Shown: positions 1,907 to 16,265 of the stretch, piece by piece
Position numbering within the stretch: the first letter of the stretch is position 1
Layout of the letters: each line of letters opens with the position of its first letter
Source of the DNA: Nitrospinota bacterium
GTDB taxonomy: Bacteria > JADFOP01
Assembly (NCBI GenBank): GCA_022562795.1
Contig: JADFOP010000044.1
Location: forward strand, 1 to 17,058
Direction of reading: 5' to 3'
Length of the DNA: 17,058 bases
Program-made: the position numbers and the translations under genes
The notes under the pieces: generated by a model
Told to the model about the DNA's origin: nothing
Databases searched by the model: none
What the model saw: the letters and a program-made list of their open reading frames with translations, nothing else

Positions 1907-1910
1907 AAGC
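1866..1910. other. Breakpoint joining truncated mutB to truncated permease
   Basis: mutB homology on the plus strand runs to about 1880-1890. Permease-like sequence on the minus strand ([11 protein letters not shown], perhaps on to EFAAGQVVG) runs leftwards into the same bases. Two convergent genes both lose their 3' ends here and no intergenic sequence remains. I see no insertion sequence or long repeat at the join. The overlap of the two homologies suggests a short microhomology. An assembly chimera and a real deletion or inversion are both possible. Confidence 0.65.
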
Positions 1911-2248
1911 AGAGTGAGGAAGGCAATATAATAGATCACCATGGTGTGGGTTGAAATGACGTACGCCATGACTGTGGCCGGCGCGGCACCAGCTCTCCAC
2001 AGTTCACCTGCTGTAGCCAGTGCCGTGCTTCGACGGGGCGAATGGGTGGCCCCCATGCCCAAGGCGGCCACGACTGCACGCAAGGATCCCTGAGCCTCGA
2101 GGGTCCGTCGGCGCAGGGGATTGTGAGCCTTCAGGGCCAGCAAGCCCCATACCAGCAGGCCCGGCACCCAGACCCAGTACATCATCTGGAAGATATGCTT
2201 AGAGAGAAAATACGAATAGGTAAGGCCCTCTCGGGCAAATTCAGCCAT
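1907..2248 (-). CDS. Putative membrane permease, N-terminal part only
   Basis: ATG at 2248, with AAGAGG a few bases upstream on the minus strand. About 114 residues can be assigned. There are two clear hydrophobic segments: near residues 18-40 (FQMMYWVWVPGLLVWGLLAL) and near 93-115 (VMAYVISTHTMVIYYIAFLT). Between them is a loop GMGATHSPRRSTALATAGEL followed by WRAGAAPATVMAYVIST. This spacing recalls the DUF318/YraQ-type permeases linked to metal efflux, but I am not certain of the family. The frame stays open into the antisense of mutB down to 1196; most of that is shadow, since mutB is unmistakable on the other strand. It is the last gene of the metal operon, 53 bases after the HMA gene, and would move the metal across the inner membrane. 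Its 3' part is missing. Confidence 0.5.
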
Positions 2249-2301: not shown

Positions 2302-2811
2302 TTACTGCGCCTCGAAGGACTCCAGGCGGAGCGCTACTGGGTCGCCCTCCTCCACCGAGCCCATAACGAGAATCTCTTTCCCTTCAAGCTCTGCTCTGAC
2401 CTGCAGGTTCTTAAGGACGTCGTTGTCGATGAGCGCGAAGGTCTGCGCGCTACCAGCGGCCTGGAAGACCGGGCTCCCTCCGCGGCTTGCCACCATCCCC
2501 CGCACCCTGGCCTTCATCCACGTGGGGGTAAAGCCGGTATCTTTAATGGCGCCTCGCAGGAGCTCCGGCTTCAGGGGAGCCCCCTCTTTCAGCGTAATCG
2601 TCCCCATCGCATCTTCTAAACTGACCTCAACTTTATCCACGCCTTCCAGGCGGGCGAGGGCCTTACGGGCCCCGTAAGCTCACGTGGGTCAGACCATGCC
2701 GTCGATGCCCATGGTCACCTGGACGGCCTGAGCCTGGGCCGCCGTCGGGAACACCATCCCCGCCACGAGCAGGCCTGCGAGCATAAGCCAGATGAACCGG
2801 TATTTTGCCAT
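2302..2811 (-). CDS. Secreted HMA-domain metal-binding selenoprotein with UxxU motif (two in-frame TGA codons)
   Basis: The start is the ATG at 2811-2809, with AAGGAG ten bases upstream. Read-through of two TGA codons (2691-2689 and 2682-2680) gives 169 residues. Residues 1-28 form a signal peptide: a basic start MAKYR, hydrophobic IWLMLAGLLVAGMVF, and cleavage near AQA. The HMA fold spans about 30-98: VQVTMGIDGMV-U41-P-T-U44-AYGARKALARLEGV, then VEVSLEDAMGTITL and LLRGAIKDTGFTPT. HMA and MerP domains carry GMxCxxC, which binds soft metals through the two Cys; here both Cys are TGA. Residues 99-169 form a second small region (ARVRGMVAS ... ALRLESFEAQ) that I cannot name. The frame has no other stop. 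It lies between a beta-barrel gene and a permease gene in a MerR-controlled operon, so a periplasmic metal carrier is likely. The alternatives are two sequence errors or a pseudogene. Both are less likely because the changes hit exactly the two expected Cys codons. Confidence 0.82.
2640..2652 (-). promoter_or_regulatory. Candidate SECIS hairpin for the second TGA
   Basis: On the minus strand CGCC pairs with GGCG around the loop UGGAA. The loop starts 32 bases after the second TGA (2682-2680), with G at loop positions 2 and 3. This meets the usual bacterial SECIS distance for the second TGA, while the hairpin at 2662-2678 suits the first. The stem is only four pairs, so it is weaker evidence than the upstream one. 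Confidence 0.35.
2662..2678 (-). promoter_or_regulatory. Candidate SECIS hairpin for the first TGA
   Basis: On the minus strand CUUACG pairs perfectly with CGUAAG around the loop GGGCC. The loop begins 17 bases after the first TGA (2691-2689) and starts with G. Bacterial SECIS elements lie in the coding region just 3' of the UGA, with the apical loop roughly 16-37 bases away and a G in its first positions. The stem also starts one base after the second TGA. Fit to the family rule is good, but I have not computed a fold. Confidence 0.5.
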
Positions 2812-2838
2812 GACCTGTTTTCTCCTTCACCAAAGTGG

Positions 2839-3729
2839 TTAAAATAAGTAGCGCAGCCCTAAGAGGACATTGTAGTCCGTCTCCGGCTGCGTTCCGTTAA
2901 GCTCTTGCACGACTGGAAGTTGGACCGAGCCCTCAACAATAACCGTGTTGATTAGGAACTGGAGTCCCGGAGCGACGAAAATGGTGTCGCCCCCCGAGTT
3001 TTCCACCTTCCGGCCGGCGAGCTCGTGTTTCTCCACGTGCTTTCCGTTGAGCTCCACGGTGAGGTTGAGCTGGGAGTTTTCAATTTGAGGCGGAAAAATC
3101 TGATACTGGTACGTGAGGTCATAGCGGACGGTATCGCCGAGCTCGAACTCCTCACCTTTGGTGTTTATCTGGTACTGCGCCCCGCCTTCGAGGCTGTGGG
3201 TGCGTCCGGTCCGCCCGAGGGCTACCCCGAAGAACGGATCGACGGAGCCAGAGCCCAGCTGAAGCGAGATGGGCAGGAGGGCCCCGAGGTTATCCCTCTC
3301 GCTATCCGAGCCCGTCGGGACCTCCAGTCCCCCAAAGACCGCCGCCTGAGTAACCCCGAACGGAACGTCCTTGTGCCAAAACCGGTATTTACCCGTCACC
3401 CGGACGTCGCCCAGCCCGTGGGTGGAGCGGACGGAGGTCGTCCCGCCGCTGGTCACCTTCAGCCGCTTCTCCACGTAGGGAACCGCCACCGCCAGCGTGG
3501 CATCGGGCATGATCTGGTACTGGGCGATAGCCGGAATCCTGTATATATCAAGCTCTTTCGAGCCGTCTTCCTTGTGGACCAGCTCCCCGAAGGTCCTGAG
3601 AGCCGTTCCCTCCACAAAGGTCGTCCGGGGAGAAAGCCCCCGAATGGGGGCCGCCCACGACTCAATCGGGAGGAGCGACAGTAGGAGAACCAGCAGAGTT
3701 ACCAGCCTAATGGCGCCAATTCCTTTCAC
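2839..3729 (-). CDS. Outer-membrane beta-barrel protein of the metal operon (MetA/phenol-degradation transporter-like)
   Basis: I chose the GTG at 3729 because GAGG lies eight bases upstream, overlapping the stop of the preceding gene; the GTG at 3735 is too close to it. The 296-residue product has a signal peptide (MKGIGAIRLV, a Leu-rich core, cleavage near SWAA). After it come alternating amphipathic strands with many Gly and aromatic residues: GLGDVRVTGKYRFWH, AAVFGGLEVPTGSDSERDN, VRYDLTYQYQIFP. It ends LLGLRYLF, with the terminal Phe typical of outer-membrane barrels. This pattern resembles the transporter family named after MetA of phenol degradation. It lies between the thioredoxin-like and HMA genes, so I infer an outer-membrane channel or structural partner for metal handling. 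Substrate unknown. Confidence 0.65.
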   Translation of the reverse strand: MKGIGAIRLVTLLVLLLSLLPIESWAAPIRGLSPRTTFVEGTALRTFGELVHKEDGSKELDIYRIPAIAQYQIMPDATLAVAVPYVEKRLKVTSGGTTSVRSTHGLGDVRVTGKYRFWHKDVPFGVTQAAVFGGLEVPTGSDSERDNLGALLPISLQLGSGSVDPFFGVALGRTGRTHSLEGGAQYQINTKGEEFELGDTVRYDLTYQYQIFPPQIENSQLNLTVELNGKHVEKHELAGRKVENSGGDTIFVAPGLQFLINTVIVEGSVQLPVVQELNGTQPETDYNVLLGLRYLF

Positions 3730-3739
3730 GACCACGTCC

Positions 3740-4009
3740 TCACTCGACTCCGACTCCCACCTCCCGCAGGACCGCCTCGCTCACGGTAGAGCGCGTGCAG
3801 CACTCCGCCAGACGGCCGTCAACCACCACAGCCGGGACGGCGTTGACGCCGTATCCCCGGGCCCGGCTTACGGCCTCGCCGTCGGCCCTGAGATCGTGGA
3901 CCACAACCTCGCAGGATGGGCAGGCGAGCCCCTTAACCAGCGCGACCGCATCCTCGCACAGCGGGCATCCCGCCGTGAAGACTTCCACCTGTCGTTTCAC
4001 CGATGTCAT
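3740..4009 (-). CDS. Small thioredoxin/glutaredoxin-fold protein with CPLC and CPSC motifs
   Basis: I chose the ATG at 4009 over the upstream alternative at 4063 because AAAGGAGG lies about seven bases before it. The product has 89 residues. It opens VEVFTAGCPLCEDA, a strand followed by a CxxC (C15, C18) at the start of the first helix, as in thioredoxin-fold proteins. A second CPSC pair follows at C30 and C33. VNAVPAVVVDGRL provides the cis-Pro before the next strand, followed by adjacent Cys near ECC. There is no signal peptide, so it should be cytoplasmic. It is the first gene of the MerR-controlled operon. I infer a thiol-based role: reduction, or passing metal to or from the membrane partners. 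The six Cys in 89 residues are high for a simple glutaredoxin. Confidence 0.72.
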   Translation of the reverse strand: MTSVKRQVEVFTAGCPLCEDAVALVKGLACPSCEVVVHDLRADGEAVSRARGYGVNAVPAVVVDGRLAECCTRSTVSEAVLREVGVGVE

Positions 4010-4047: not shown

Positions 4048-4086
4048 TTGAAAAGAAGGGCAACGACGCTTTATATTCTGAATATA
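4048..4086 (+). promoter_or_regulatory. Divergent promoter for the MerR-family gene, with a palindrome over both -10 boxes
   Basis: Plus strand: TTGAAA (4048-4053), 18-bp spacer, TATATT (4072-4077). The -10 forms the left half of the perfect palindrome TATATTC-T-GAATATA (4072-4086), whose right half holds the -10 of the opposing operon promoter. The two promoters therefore overlap face to face, so one protein bound at 4091-4106 could affect both. Confidence 0.5.
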
Positions 4087-4112
4087 GAGATTCCAGCTAA
4101 CTGGAAGGTCAA
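4081..4112 (-). promoter_or_regulatory. MerR-type promoter and operator of the metal operon
   Basis: On the minus strand: -35 TTGACC (4112-4107), a 20-bp spacer, and -10 TATATT (4086-4081). The spacer holds an inverted repeat TTCCAG-TTAG-CTGGAA (4106-4091). Promoters activated by MerR-family proteins have over-long 19-20 bp spacers with a dyad operator between the two hexamers, and the metal-bound regulator untwists the DNA. Every part of that design is present, and a MerR-family gene lies directly divergent. The start of transcription would be near 4074. Confidence 0.85.
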
Positions 4113-4140: not shown

Positions 4141-4548
4141 ATGGCCGATGGGCAAAAATTATTGATCGGCGAGGCGGCTAGGCGGGCGGACCTCAACCCG
4201 AAAACCATCAGGTTCTACGAGGAGATGGGCCTGATCTCACCGCTGGGGCGCACTCCCAAGGGCTATCGCCTCTTTGACGAGGAGGCGGTATCCCGTCTAG
4301 GCTTCATAAAGAAGGCTCAGGCCCTCGGCTTCACCCTGACGGAGATCGGCGAGATTCTGGCTCTCAGGGACGGCGGGGCCATGCCGTGCGACCACGTGGA
4401 GGTCGAGGTGACCCGCAAGGTGGCGGCTATCGAGGAGCGGATCGCCGAGCTTACCCGCCTCAAGACTTCTCTGGAGACCCTCCTTGAGAGGTGGAAGGAG
4501 GCGGAAGCCTCCGGCGCCGCCGTCTGCCCCCGCATCGAGTGGACCTAG
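4141..4548 (+). CDS. MerR-family metal-responsive transcription regulator
   Basis: The ATG at 4141 has AAGGAG at 4128-4133. In-frame sequence upstream to 4003 overlaps the promoters and is not coding. The product has 135 residues. The N-terminal winged helix-turn-helix is plain (IGEAARRADLNPKTIRFYEE, then GLI and GYRLFDEEAV), followed by ALGFTLTEIGEIL and a long dimerisation helix (about 87-122). Metal-binding Cys are C83 (AMPCDHV) and C129 (AVCPRIE). These match C82 and C126 of mercury MerR, but the equivalent of its C117 is Trp118, so this is not a canonical mercury sensor; a zinc-, cadmium-, lead- or copper-type response is possible. It should regulate the divergent operon and perhaps itself. 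Its last bases overlap the convergent TauE gene. Confidence 0.9.
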   Translation: MADGQKLLIGEAARRADLNPKTIRFYEEMGLISPLGRTPKGYRLFDEEAVSRLGFIKKAQALGFTLTEIGEILALRDGGAMPCDHVEVEVTRKVAAIEERIAELTRLKTSLETLLERWKEAEASGAAVCPRIEWT

Positions 4549-5284: not shown

Positions 5285-6310
5285 CTACGGTCCGTCTGAT
5301 AACGCTTTGAGGATCTCATCCCGCTCGTAGCGCGGAAGGGGGCGCTCGGCCCCGTCGGCCCCGACGAGCAGGCAGCCGTCCGCCTCCTCGGTGGTCCGGC
5401 CTATGGTGGCCACCTCGACCCCGGCTCGTGCGACCGCCCGCCGGGCGGCCTCGGCGGCCTCGGGCCTGCAGGCGATGAGAAGGGCCCCCGAGGCGATAGT
5501 CCCCAGGGGATCGATGCCGAAGGCATCGCAAATCGCGCGGCCCTCGCTCACGATGGGGATGGCGGCCTCTTCGAGCCGCACGCCGACACCCGCCGCGCGG
5601 GCGAGCTCGTGGCAGGCCTGGGCGAGGCCCCCTTCGGTGGGGTCGTGCATGGCGCTCACTCCCTCGACGGCGGCGGCCGCAAGGGCCTCGTCTACCACAT
5701 TGATCCCAGGCTCGACCAAGAGCGAGGCAGCCCGGGCGATGACCTCTTCTGCCACCCCTTTGGCCCTGAGCGAGGCGGCGCAGTCGGTGGCCAGGATGGC
5801 GGTCCCTTCTAGGGGGACCGCCTTGGTCAGTAGCAGCACGTCTCCGGCCTCGGCCCCAGAGGTTGTTATGAGCCGTCTTCCGTCAGTCTCGCCCAACATG
5901 GTTCCGGACAGGATGGGCCTCTCCAGGCCCCGGCTCACCTCGGTGTGGCCCCCTATGACGGCGACCCCCAAGGCCCGGCAGGCCCGGCCCACCTGATCGG
6001 CAAGGGCTGAGGCCATACTCCAGTCAGCAGAGCCCTCCGGCATACAGCAGGTCCATAGAAACCAGCGGGGCCGAGCTCCGTAGACGGCGACATCGTTGGC
6101 GTTAACCGCCACGACGTAGGCGCCCGGCTCTTTGGTGGCGAAGGTGATGGGGTCACTGGCCACTACGAGGTAGCTCTCCCCGAGGTCCAGCACAGCGGCG
6201 TCCTCGCCCGGGGCAGGGCCGACCACCAGCCGCTCGTCGGCCGTGGGGAGGCGCTCCAAGAGGCGGGCCAGCTGGTCCAGGGTGAGCTTTCCCTCGGCAA
6301 GAGGCTCCAT
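5285..6310 (-). CDS. PurM/HypE-like (AIR synthase-related) ATP-binding protein
   Basis: 341 residues if started at the ATG at 6310 (MEPLAEGKLTLDQLARLLER), which fits the usual start of HypE-like proteins. A GTG at 6391 would add 27 residues without a ribosome site. Motifs of the PurM/HypE/SelD/ThiL superfamily: GPAPGEDAAVLD (nucleotide/Mg binding), VASDPITFATKE, VNANDVAVYGARPRWF, GVAVIGGHTEVSRG, MHDPTEGGLAQA. HypE dehydrates a carbamoyl group to cyanide for NiFe hydrogenases, but this protein lacks a HypE-type C-terminal PRIC-like tail; it ends EILKALSDGP. No hyp genes are nearby. It also lacks the Cys/Sec-Gly-Cys-Lys start of SelD. The exact reaction is unknown. Downstream is the TauE gene; upstream is tyrS. 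Confidence 0.75.
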   Translation of the reverse strand: MEPLAEGKLTLDQLARLLERLPTADERLVVGPAPGEDAAVLDLGESYLVVASDPITFATKEPGAYVVAVNANDVAVYGARPRWFLWTCCMPEGSADWSMASALADQVGRACRALGVAVIGGHTEVSRGLERPILSGTMLGETDGRRLITTSGAEAGDVLLLTKAVPLEGTAILATDCAASLRAKGVAEEVIARAASLLVEPGINVVDEALAAAAVEGVSAMHDPTEGGLAQACHELARAAGVGVRLEEAAIPIVSEGRAICDAFGIDPLGTIASGALLIACRPEAAEAARRAVARAGVEVATIGRTTEEADGCLLVGADGAERPLPRYERDEILKALSDGP

Positions 6311-6445
6311 GGGCTTGCCCTCAAGCGGCCATAAGGTAACAGCAGCCCCGGTGGTTTGCAAGGGCTCGGAAGGCGCTCCATCCCCTTCCACGACAAGGTG
6401 CGCGTTCCCCTAGGTAACCGTAACGGATTTACCTATAAAACGATG

Positions 6446-15402: not shown

Positions 15403-16265
15403 TCATATCATCAGAGAACGTAGGTAGTCTCGGAAGGCTTCTCCCAACTCTCCGTTCTTCAAAGCGTACTCCACCGTTGCCTGAAGATAGCCGAGCTTAT
15501 CCCCGGCGTCGTACCGTTTGCCTTCGAAAACGACCCCGTAGACGGGCTCCTCAGCCGCCAGGGCCCTCAGAGCGTCGGTAAGCTGGATCTCCCCTCGTCG
15601 ATCGGGCTTTGTCTCAGCTAGCAGAGGAAATATGGCAGGCGTCAAGATGTAACGCCCAATAATGGCCAGGTCGCTCGGAGCCTCCTCGGGAGTCGGCTTC
15701 TCCACCAGGTCCGTTATGCGCCAGAGCCTCTCGCCCATCTGGGTGCCGGCGATGACCCCATAGCGGCCGATCGCTTCACCGGGGATCCGCTCAAGGGCGA
15801 TCACCGAGGCGCGATGTTCGACTGCCACCTCTAGGAGCTGCTTGAGACACGGCACCTCGGAGTCGATGATATCGTCGCCCAGTACGACGGCGAAGGGCTC
15901 TTCTCCCACCGCCCCTGAAGCGCAGAGGATTGCATGGCCCAAGCCCAGAGCCTCCTTCTGGCGCACGTAGCAAAAGCTCGCCATATCGGCAATGGCACGG
16001 ACCTCCTCGAGGAGCTCGAATTCCCCTTTCGCCTCCAAGGTGTGCTCAAGCTCAATGGAGGCGTCGAAGTGATCCTCGATGGCCCGTTTGCCCCGGCCCG
16101 TGACGATGATCGCCTGAGTAATTCCGCTGGCGACGGCCTCCTCGACCCCGTACTGAATAAGCGGTTTGTCCACTAGCGGCAACATCTCTTTGGGTGAGGC
16201 CTTAGTCGCTGGCAAGAACCGGGTCCCAGACCACCGGCAGGGAAAACGGCTTTACGAACATTCAT
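15403..16265 (-). CDS. galU: UTP-glucose-1-phosphate uridylyltransferase with an apparent one-base frameshift
   Basis: Makes UDP-glucose for sugar-nucleotide and envelope polysaccharide synthesis. The true N-terminus is the ATG at 16265 (MNVRKAVFPAGGLG). The frame then shifts, and TRFLPATKASPKEMLPLVDK continues in another frame. Adding one base in the run CTGGGACCC (16221-16229) restores the family motif GLGTRFLPATKASPKEM. The rest is intact: AIIVTGRGKRAIEDHFD, VVLGDDIIDSEVP, YGVIAGTQMG, GKRYDAGDKLGYLQA, ending LRSLMI. Without the correction, translation would need the TTG at 16215, which loses the nucleotide-binding loop. A short homopolymer error is the simplest explanation; a recent inactivating mutation is the alternative. 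Confidence 0.9.

Follow-up and report, generated by a model that had tools for sequence, protein, structure and literature searches.

A predicted secreted HMA protein with two selenocysteine codons, encoded behind a MerR-type promoter in a Nitrospinota bacterium

Our analysis of a 17,058-nucleotide stretch of Nitrospinota DNA (the window) revealed a gene on the minus strand, at positions 2302..2811, whose two in-frame TGA codons fall on both ligand positions of a heavy-metal-associated (HMA) motif, and we hold with high confidence that both are read as selenocysteine (Sec, U). In conjunction with the comparison of related genomes, we consider the following reading probable as a whole: the gene encodes a periplasmic protein with an HMA domain, two Sec residues and an OB-like domain, which binds a soft metal, probably Hg(II), and is expressed from a MerR-type promoter. 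We propose the following model for its action. The metal-inducible promoter would drive the HMA gene together with genes for a small thioredoxin-like protein and an outer-membrane protein, and tRNA-Sec would read the UGAs as Sec with the aid of bSECIS-like hairpins downstream. The product, with an HMA domain of the MerP/CopZ type, would be exported to the periplasm, where the diselenolate pair of its UxxU motif would most likely hold the metal ion, probably Hg(II), and from there the metal would pass to a partner protein, for instance an ArsP-like permease or MerT-UU and MerF, both described below.

The gene and its predicted product

From the ATG at 2811 to the TAA at 2304-2302 the frame is open apart from the two internal TGAs, giving a predicted product of 169 residues with both codons read as U. 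The first TGA (2689..2691, minus strand; residue 41 counted from the ATG) and the second (2680..2682, minus strand; residue 44) occupy the first and second Cys positions of GMxCxxC. Read on the minus strand, TGA (2691-2689), CCC, ACG and TGA (2682-2680) yield G-M-V-U-P-T-U-A-Y-G, exactly where a preliminary description of this DNA had placed the pair. That description also took the gene to be whole, and the parts are indeed there: a ribosome-binding site, AAGGAG, at 2822..2827 (minus) 5' of the ATG; a predicted signal peptide at 2728..2811 (minus; residues 1-28, ending in PTAAQAQ), recognized from its sequence pattern by inspection and falling in the low-confidence N-terminus of the structural model; the HMA domain; and a further 74 C-terminal residues. 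A simple list of open reading frames reduces the gene to the residues after the TGAs, a truncation foreseen for automatic gene callers, and one that would also fit a pseudogene or a sequencing error, with TGC or TGT mutated or miscalled as TGA; the comparative evidence given below makes this very improbable.

The MerP-like HMA domain spans residues 30-95 (2527..2724, minus), and the Pfam HMA family (PF00403) matches residues 37-95 of the 170-residue query with an E value of 2.5e-9. The AlphaFold model of the protein has a mean pLDDT of 84.5, and its structural matches are MerP (1osd, TMt 0.84) and copper chaperones. The last 74 residues (residues 96-169; 2305..2526, minus) matched no known family. 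Modeled alone, they form a small b-b-b-a-b-b barrel (pLDDT 91.5), for which the top match in the PDB is NlpE (E 3e-3, TMq 0.71); numerous proteins with an OB-fold come next. The C-terminal domain of NlpE is an OB-fold. On the basis of these matches, "OB-like" is a reasonable label for the predicted domain, one that tells nothing about its function.

According to the bacterial SECIS model given in PMC13188914, the loop lies 16-37 nt after the UGA, with a G within the first two loop positions. Each of the two UGAs is followed by one candidate hairpin that satisfies this rule. The candidate for the first (2657..2673, minus) pairs GGGGCC with GGCCCU around CGUAA, its loop 21 nt after the UGA; that for the second (2640..2652, minus), identical in the same-genus genome G001, pairs CGCCU with AGGCG around GGA, its loop about 33 nt after the UGA. 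The minimum-energy version at the second site, CCUCGCCCGCCUGGAAGGCGUGG, has a larger loop 27 nt after the UGA. Compared with plain shuffles, the stability of the post-UGA RNA is unremarkable (z near 0). In a second test, which recoded the genes synonymously with local codon use, the two hairpins of the window gene are not significant singly (p 0.15 and 0.45, respectively). When pooled, the Sec members of the long, two-domain family do exceed such shuffles (Fisher p 0.001), as do the remaining Sec genes (Fisher p 0.003); the combined p values are too small, as the tests pool overlapping sites and related genes and overstate independence. CxxC controls have no hairpin at all. We take the pooled statistics for these candidate hairpins as supporting evidence only.

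Conservation, cysteine exchange and Sec decoding

How well is the pair of TGAs conserved? The genome that carries the window (G000) was compared with G001, its sole relative of the same genus in the set. The G001 orthologue shares 74% protein identity and retains both TGAs. Nei–Gojobori dN/dS between the two is 0.22 for the whole gene and 0.066 for the HMA domain, which indicates that protein-level purifying selection acts on both sides of the TGAs. The recurrence of both codons in a second species, assembled independently, this selection on the flanks, the occurrence of TGA only opposite Cys in relatives from other families, and the conservation of further UGA-containing genes (MerT-UU, the second HMA gene and a glutaredoxin gene, described below) all argue against a pseudogene or error. 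Decay in particular is ruled out by the conservation in G001, in agreement with the earlier argument that chance would not place two TGAs at these positions.

Beyond the genus, a profile search across 386 genomes recovered full-length relatives with all four combinations at the motif: UxxU in G000, G001, G363 and one copy in G192; UxxC in G152; CxxU in G365 and G099; and CxxC in G178 and the second G192 copy. In this HMA+OB subfamily the two motif positions vary independently, each being Sec in some members and Cys in others; the in-frame TGAs stand opposite Cys, and no internal TGA occurs in the long-form relatives outside the two motif columns. Cys homologues aligning CxxC to UxxU, which the preliminary description had proposed to seek, therefore exist, among them a paralogue in G192, where a single gene run holds a UxxU copy, an outer-membrane protein gene and a CxxC copy (GLSCPFCAYG). 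This pair appears to be the clearest instance of Sec/Cys exchange. A tree of the nine full-length relatives is too unresolved for the switches to be counted. Some reference translations that proved to be out of frame were left aside, as was one alignment that held a row from the wrong strand (L043).

Other searches reached less far. A pattern scan of a broad genome set recovered G001 alone, because its patterns were drawn from the signal peptide and from the few residues that follow; a plasmid scan gave ordinary MerA/HMA matches only, and a scan of viral contigs gave no matches. Two further Sec-containing HMA loci were observed along the way. One, on G139:C19 (L074), has two HMA segments with GMTUPFTUP, in which the spacing is UxxxU and not UxxU, in a cluster that also holds UxxC-type glutaredoxin, MerT-like and MerA-like genes. 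The other, at G109:C6:129386-129652 (L104), is a short HMA protein with GMTUGLC and a single Sec (UxxC).

The components for reading UGA as Sec were present in part. G000 encodes a tRNA-Sec with anticodon TCA (UCA) at C37:1708-1797 (77.6 bits) and a selD gene at C27:1-672 (L079; 307 bits) that ends at the contig edge; this SelD is itself a selenoprotein, its catalytic residue being encoded by an in-frame TGA (GGGUACK). ARAGORN made a second tRNA-SeC (tca) call on C37, at 15725-15811 (L006), which reaches no more than 39.4 bits against Rfam's tRNA-Sec model, and a C-terminal piece of SelD lies at C45:16036-16257. Searches of the G000 assembly, which is 97% complete, recovered neither selA nor selB. 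Among the genes that had been suggested as a check on the genome (selA, selB, selC and selD), those for tRNA-Sec and SelD were thus recovered, and selA and selB only in the same-genus genome, where they are adjacent and lie beside scpA/scpB. A synteny gap was considered as the reason for their absence from G000 and leaves it unexplained: scpA lies on C34 among other neighbors, with no selA alongside. As G000 has a tRNA-Sec, a selD of the Sec type and several UGA genes that are conserved, an assembly gap is likelier than a true loss. The absence of the pair does count against our reading and lends something to the pseudogene explanation. Comparison across the two genomes places the gene in a Sec-decoding lineage, and we infer incorporation of Sec into its product.

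Several genes here read through TGA, as they would if the codon had been reassigned genome-wide, to Gly or Trp for instance. Other genes of the window end normally at TGA, so we reject such a recoding; tRNA-Sec and selD are present and the internal TGAs align to Cys, and the probability left to it is negligible.

Operon, promoter and the mer-type cluster

The HMA gene lies in an operon whose first gene encodes a small thioredoxin/glutaredoxin-like protein with a CPLC motif (3740..4009, minus). Between them, upstream of the HMA gene, is a gene for an outer-membrane beta-barrel-like protein of the PF13557 family (2839..3735, minus), and similar outer-membrane proteins occur in the G001 and G192 clusters. 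The promoter (4081..4112, minus) consists of TTGACC and TATATT around the dyad TTCCAGTTAGCTGGAA, with a spacer of about 20 bp, TTCCAGTTAGCTGGAATCTC, and the same element is found in G001. A dyad inside such a long spacer is the layout of MerR-controlled promoters, and on comparison we assign the element to this type. Divergent from the operon is a gene for a MerR-family metal regulator (4141..4548, plus), whose best model is MerR, with a score below the MerR cut-off.

The next gene downstream of the HMA gene encodes an ArsP_1-like permease, of which the window has the 5' part (1907..2248, minus), cut at a contig joint; the fragment matches ArsP_1 (PF03773) weakly (E 0.021), and in G099 a full-length ArsP_1 permease stands beside the long HMA gene. 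Two genes break off near 1907, the permease gene on the minus strand and, on the plus strand, one for a methylmalonyl-CoA mutase-like protein, and because both end there the joint is probably false (chimeric) or a rearrangement. The first 1.9 kb of the window also deviate most strongly in tetranucleotide use. On the other side of the operon, a gene for an AIRS-family protein (HypE/ThiL/SelD-like; 5285-6391, minus) scores below all cut-offs. It was considered as selD and rejected, as it scores best to HypE/ThiL models and lies under the selD cut-off, the true selD being on C27. A similar AIRS-family gene lies at G001:C233:2525-3295, on the contig that carries the G001 selenoprotein cluster.

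In G001 the HMA gene is followed by genes for MerT-UU, an ArsR regulator, a MerF-like protein, a UxxC glutaredoxin, a CC MerT-like protein, a second UxxU HMA protein and a UxxC protein, so that the cluster holds five selenoprotein genes with eight Sec codons. MerT-UU is a MerT-like protein in which two adjacent TGAs replace the CC pair of the first membrane helix (LLPNIUUILPLV). Its gene is found at G001:C233 (L035:5733-6044) and, on the minus strand, at G000:C46 (L032:6435-6746), with the TGA pair kept between the species. Contig C46 of G000, separate from the window contig, carries the same block as the G001 cluster, with a MerF gene (PF11431, 63 bits), the second HMA gene (87.4 bits to NF041115) and, directly before MerT-UU, another HMA+OB gene cut by the contig end. 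The TGAs of MerT-UU, the second HMA gene and the glutaredoxin gene are kept between G000 and G001, with dN/dS values of 0.17, 0.30 and 0.11, respectively. No MerA match above the TIGR02053 cut-off was found in G000, G001 or G192. It is conceivable, and we put this forward tentatively, that selenium has taken over most of a mer-type pathway: the soft metal would pass from periplasmic UxxU HMA proteins to MerT-UU, as a channel in the membrane, and on to the UxxC redoxins, with selenolates taking the place of thiolates at successive hand-overs.

Metal, redox and relation to known selenoproteins

What might the double-Sec motif do? The regulator, the promoter and the MerF-, MerT- and MerP-like partners suggest inducible handling of a soft metal, and given this mer-type context, trafficking of Hg-like metals is in our judgment the likely function. 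A real double-Sec protein could instead serve thiol or diselenide redox chemistry, for example by acting as reductant of a substrate or of the thiols of its partners, with no transfer of metal. Redox proteins are where Sec is found most often (PMC9312934 and PMC13188914), UxxC glutaredoxin and thioredoxin-like genes share the cluster, and the operon itself begins with the CPLC protein. The fold around the UxxU motif, however, is that of an HMA domain, with MerP and copper chaperones as its matches, and not that of a thioredoxin; this, together with the MerR-type promoter and the MerF and MerT-like neighbors, makes a purely redox role unlikely.

Within the trafficking reading, Hg(II) is our first choice of metal, by a modest preference, since mercury is what MerF and MerT transport, and since MerR is the model to which the regulator scores highest. 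Selenium binds Hg(II) more tightly than sulfur does. Tighter binding of Hg, Cu, Ag or Cd by the diselenolate site itself, as put forward in the preliminary description, would be a possibility. The same system might have Cu(I)/Ag(I) or Zn/Cd as its physiological metal, which we regard as the lesser but real possibility: copper handling commonly relies on CxxC HMA domains, CopZ models fit the window protein about as well as MerP does, the downstream permease resembles a family that includes efflux proteins, and MerA over the cut-off is missing. Against these stand the MerF and MerT-like genes of the cluster and the regulator's best score, even though that score is under the cut-off. Mercury would head the list of candidate ligands, and hand-over would probably run toward the membrane. 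The mer-type neighbors in G001 are established by comparison.

The preliminary description mentioned earlier reports of Mer-type selenoproteins, and the precedent is real. NCBI's NF041115 describes a "UxxU metal-binding (seleno)protein", Sec-containing MerP and MerT-type proteins have already been listed (PMC2398784), and PMC13188914 cites a UxxU metal-binding selenoprotein with two Sec from Olavius Delta 1 after Zhang and Gladyshev (2007). As a kind, an HMA protein with two Sec residues is already known, NF041115 being an established family. The window protein shares with it an HMA-type domain with both Cys replaced by Sec, but scores 46.5 bits against a cut-off of 95, over profile positions 1-47 of 74 only, and is set apart by the OB-like domain at its C terminus and by Sec/Cys variants of its own; the near member in the cluster is the second HMA gene (87.4 bits). 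With MerP (TIGR02052; 1osd, 1afi) it has in common the predicted signal peptide, the HMA fold, the position of the metal motif and the mer-type context, but it carries Sec at both ligands and an OB-like extension, and reaches 39.2 bits against a cut-off of 92.55. By sequence, the window gene belongs to an HMA+OB subfamily distinct from the short NF041115 type, within an unusually Sec-rich mer-type cluster.

The neighbors, too, have known counterparts. Sec-containing MerT proteins (PF02411, C/SxxU; the MerT/CopZ fusion NF045683) likewise place Sec in Hg-transport-type proteins, but those reviewed in PMC13188914 (2026) have a single Sec in C/SxxU, whereas the MerT-like protein of the cluster has a tandem UU at the CC pair. 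The tandem site is not in the list of that review as available to us, and an earlier mention of such a site is possible. The SAO system, as described in the same review, also gathers several selenoprotein genes in one metal-linked operon, but the present cluster has mer-type HMA/MerT/MerF genes instead of Sao proteins, and no Sao model was among the NCBIfam matches of the cluster proteins scanned. With the mer operon, the window operon shares the MerR-type regulator and the long-spacer dyad promoter; MerF and MerT-like genes lie in the G001 unit and on G000:C46, off the window contig.

What is the relevance of a second architecture? Double-Sec HMA proteins have so far been a short annotated family without a tested mechanism. 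The HMA+OB form adds all four Sec/Cys combinations, a MerR-type promoter and a link to MerT-UU with its two neighboring Sec codons, and it makes testable the question of whether bacterial selenolates serve as metal ligands in a detoxification relay. Gene callers would lose genes of this UGA-containing type, and a marine Nitrospinae-type lineage gains several conserved selenoprotein genes. If the reading is true, the pathway may use selenium in place of sulfur to catch toxic soft metals.
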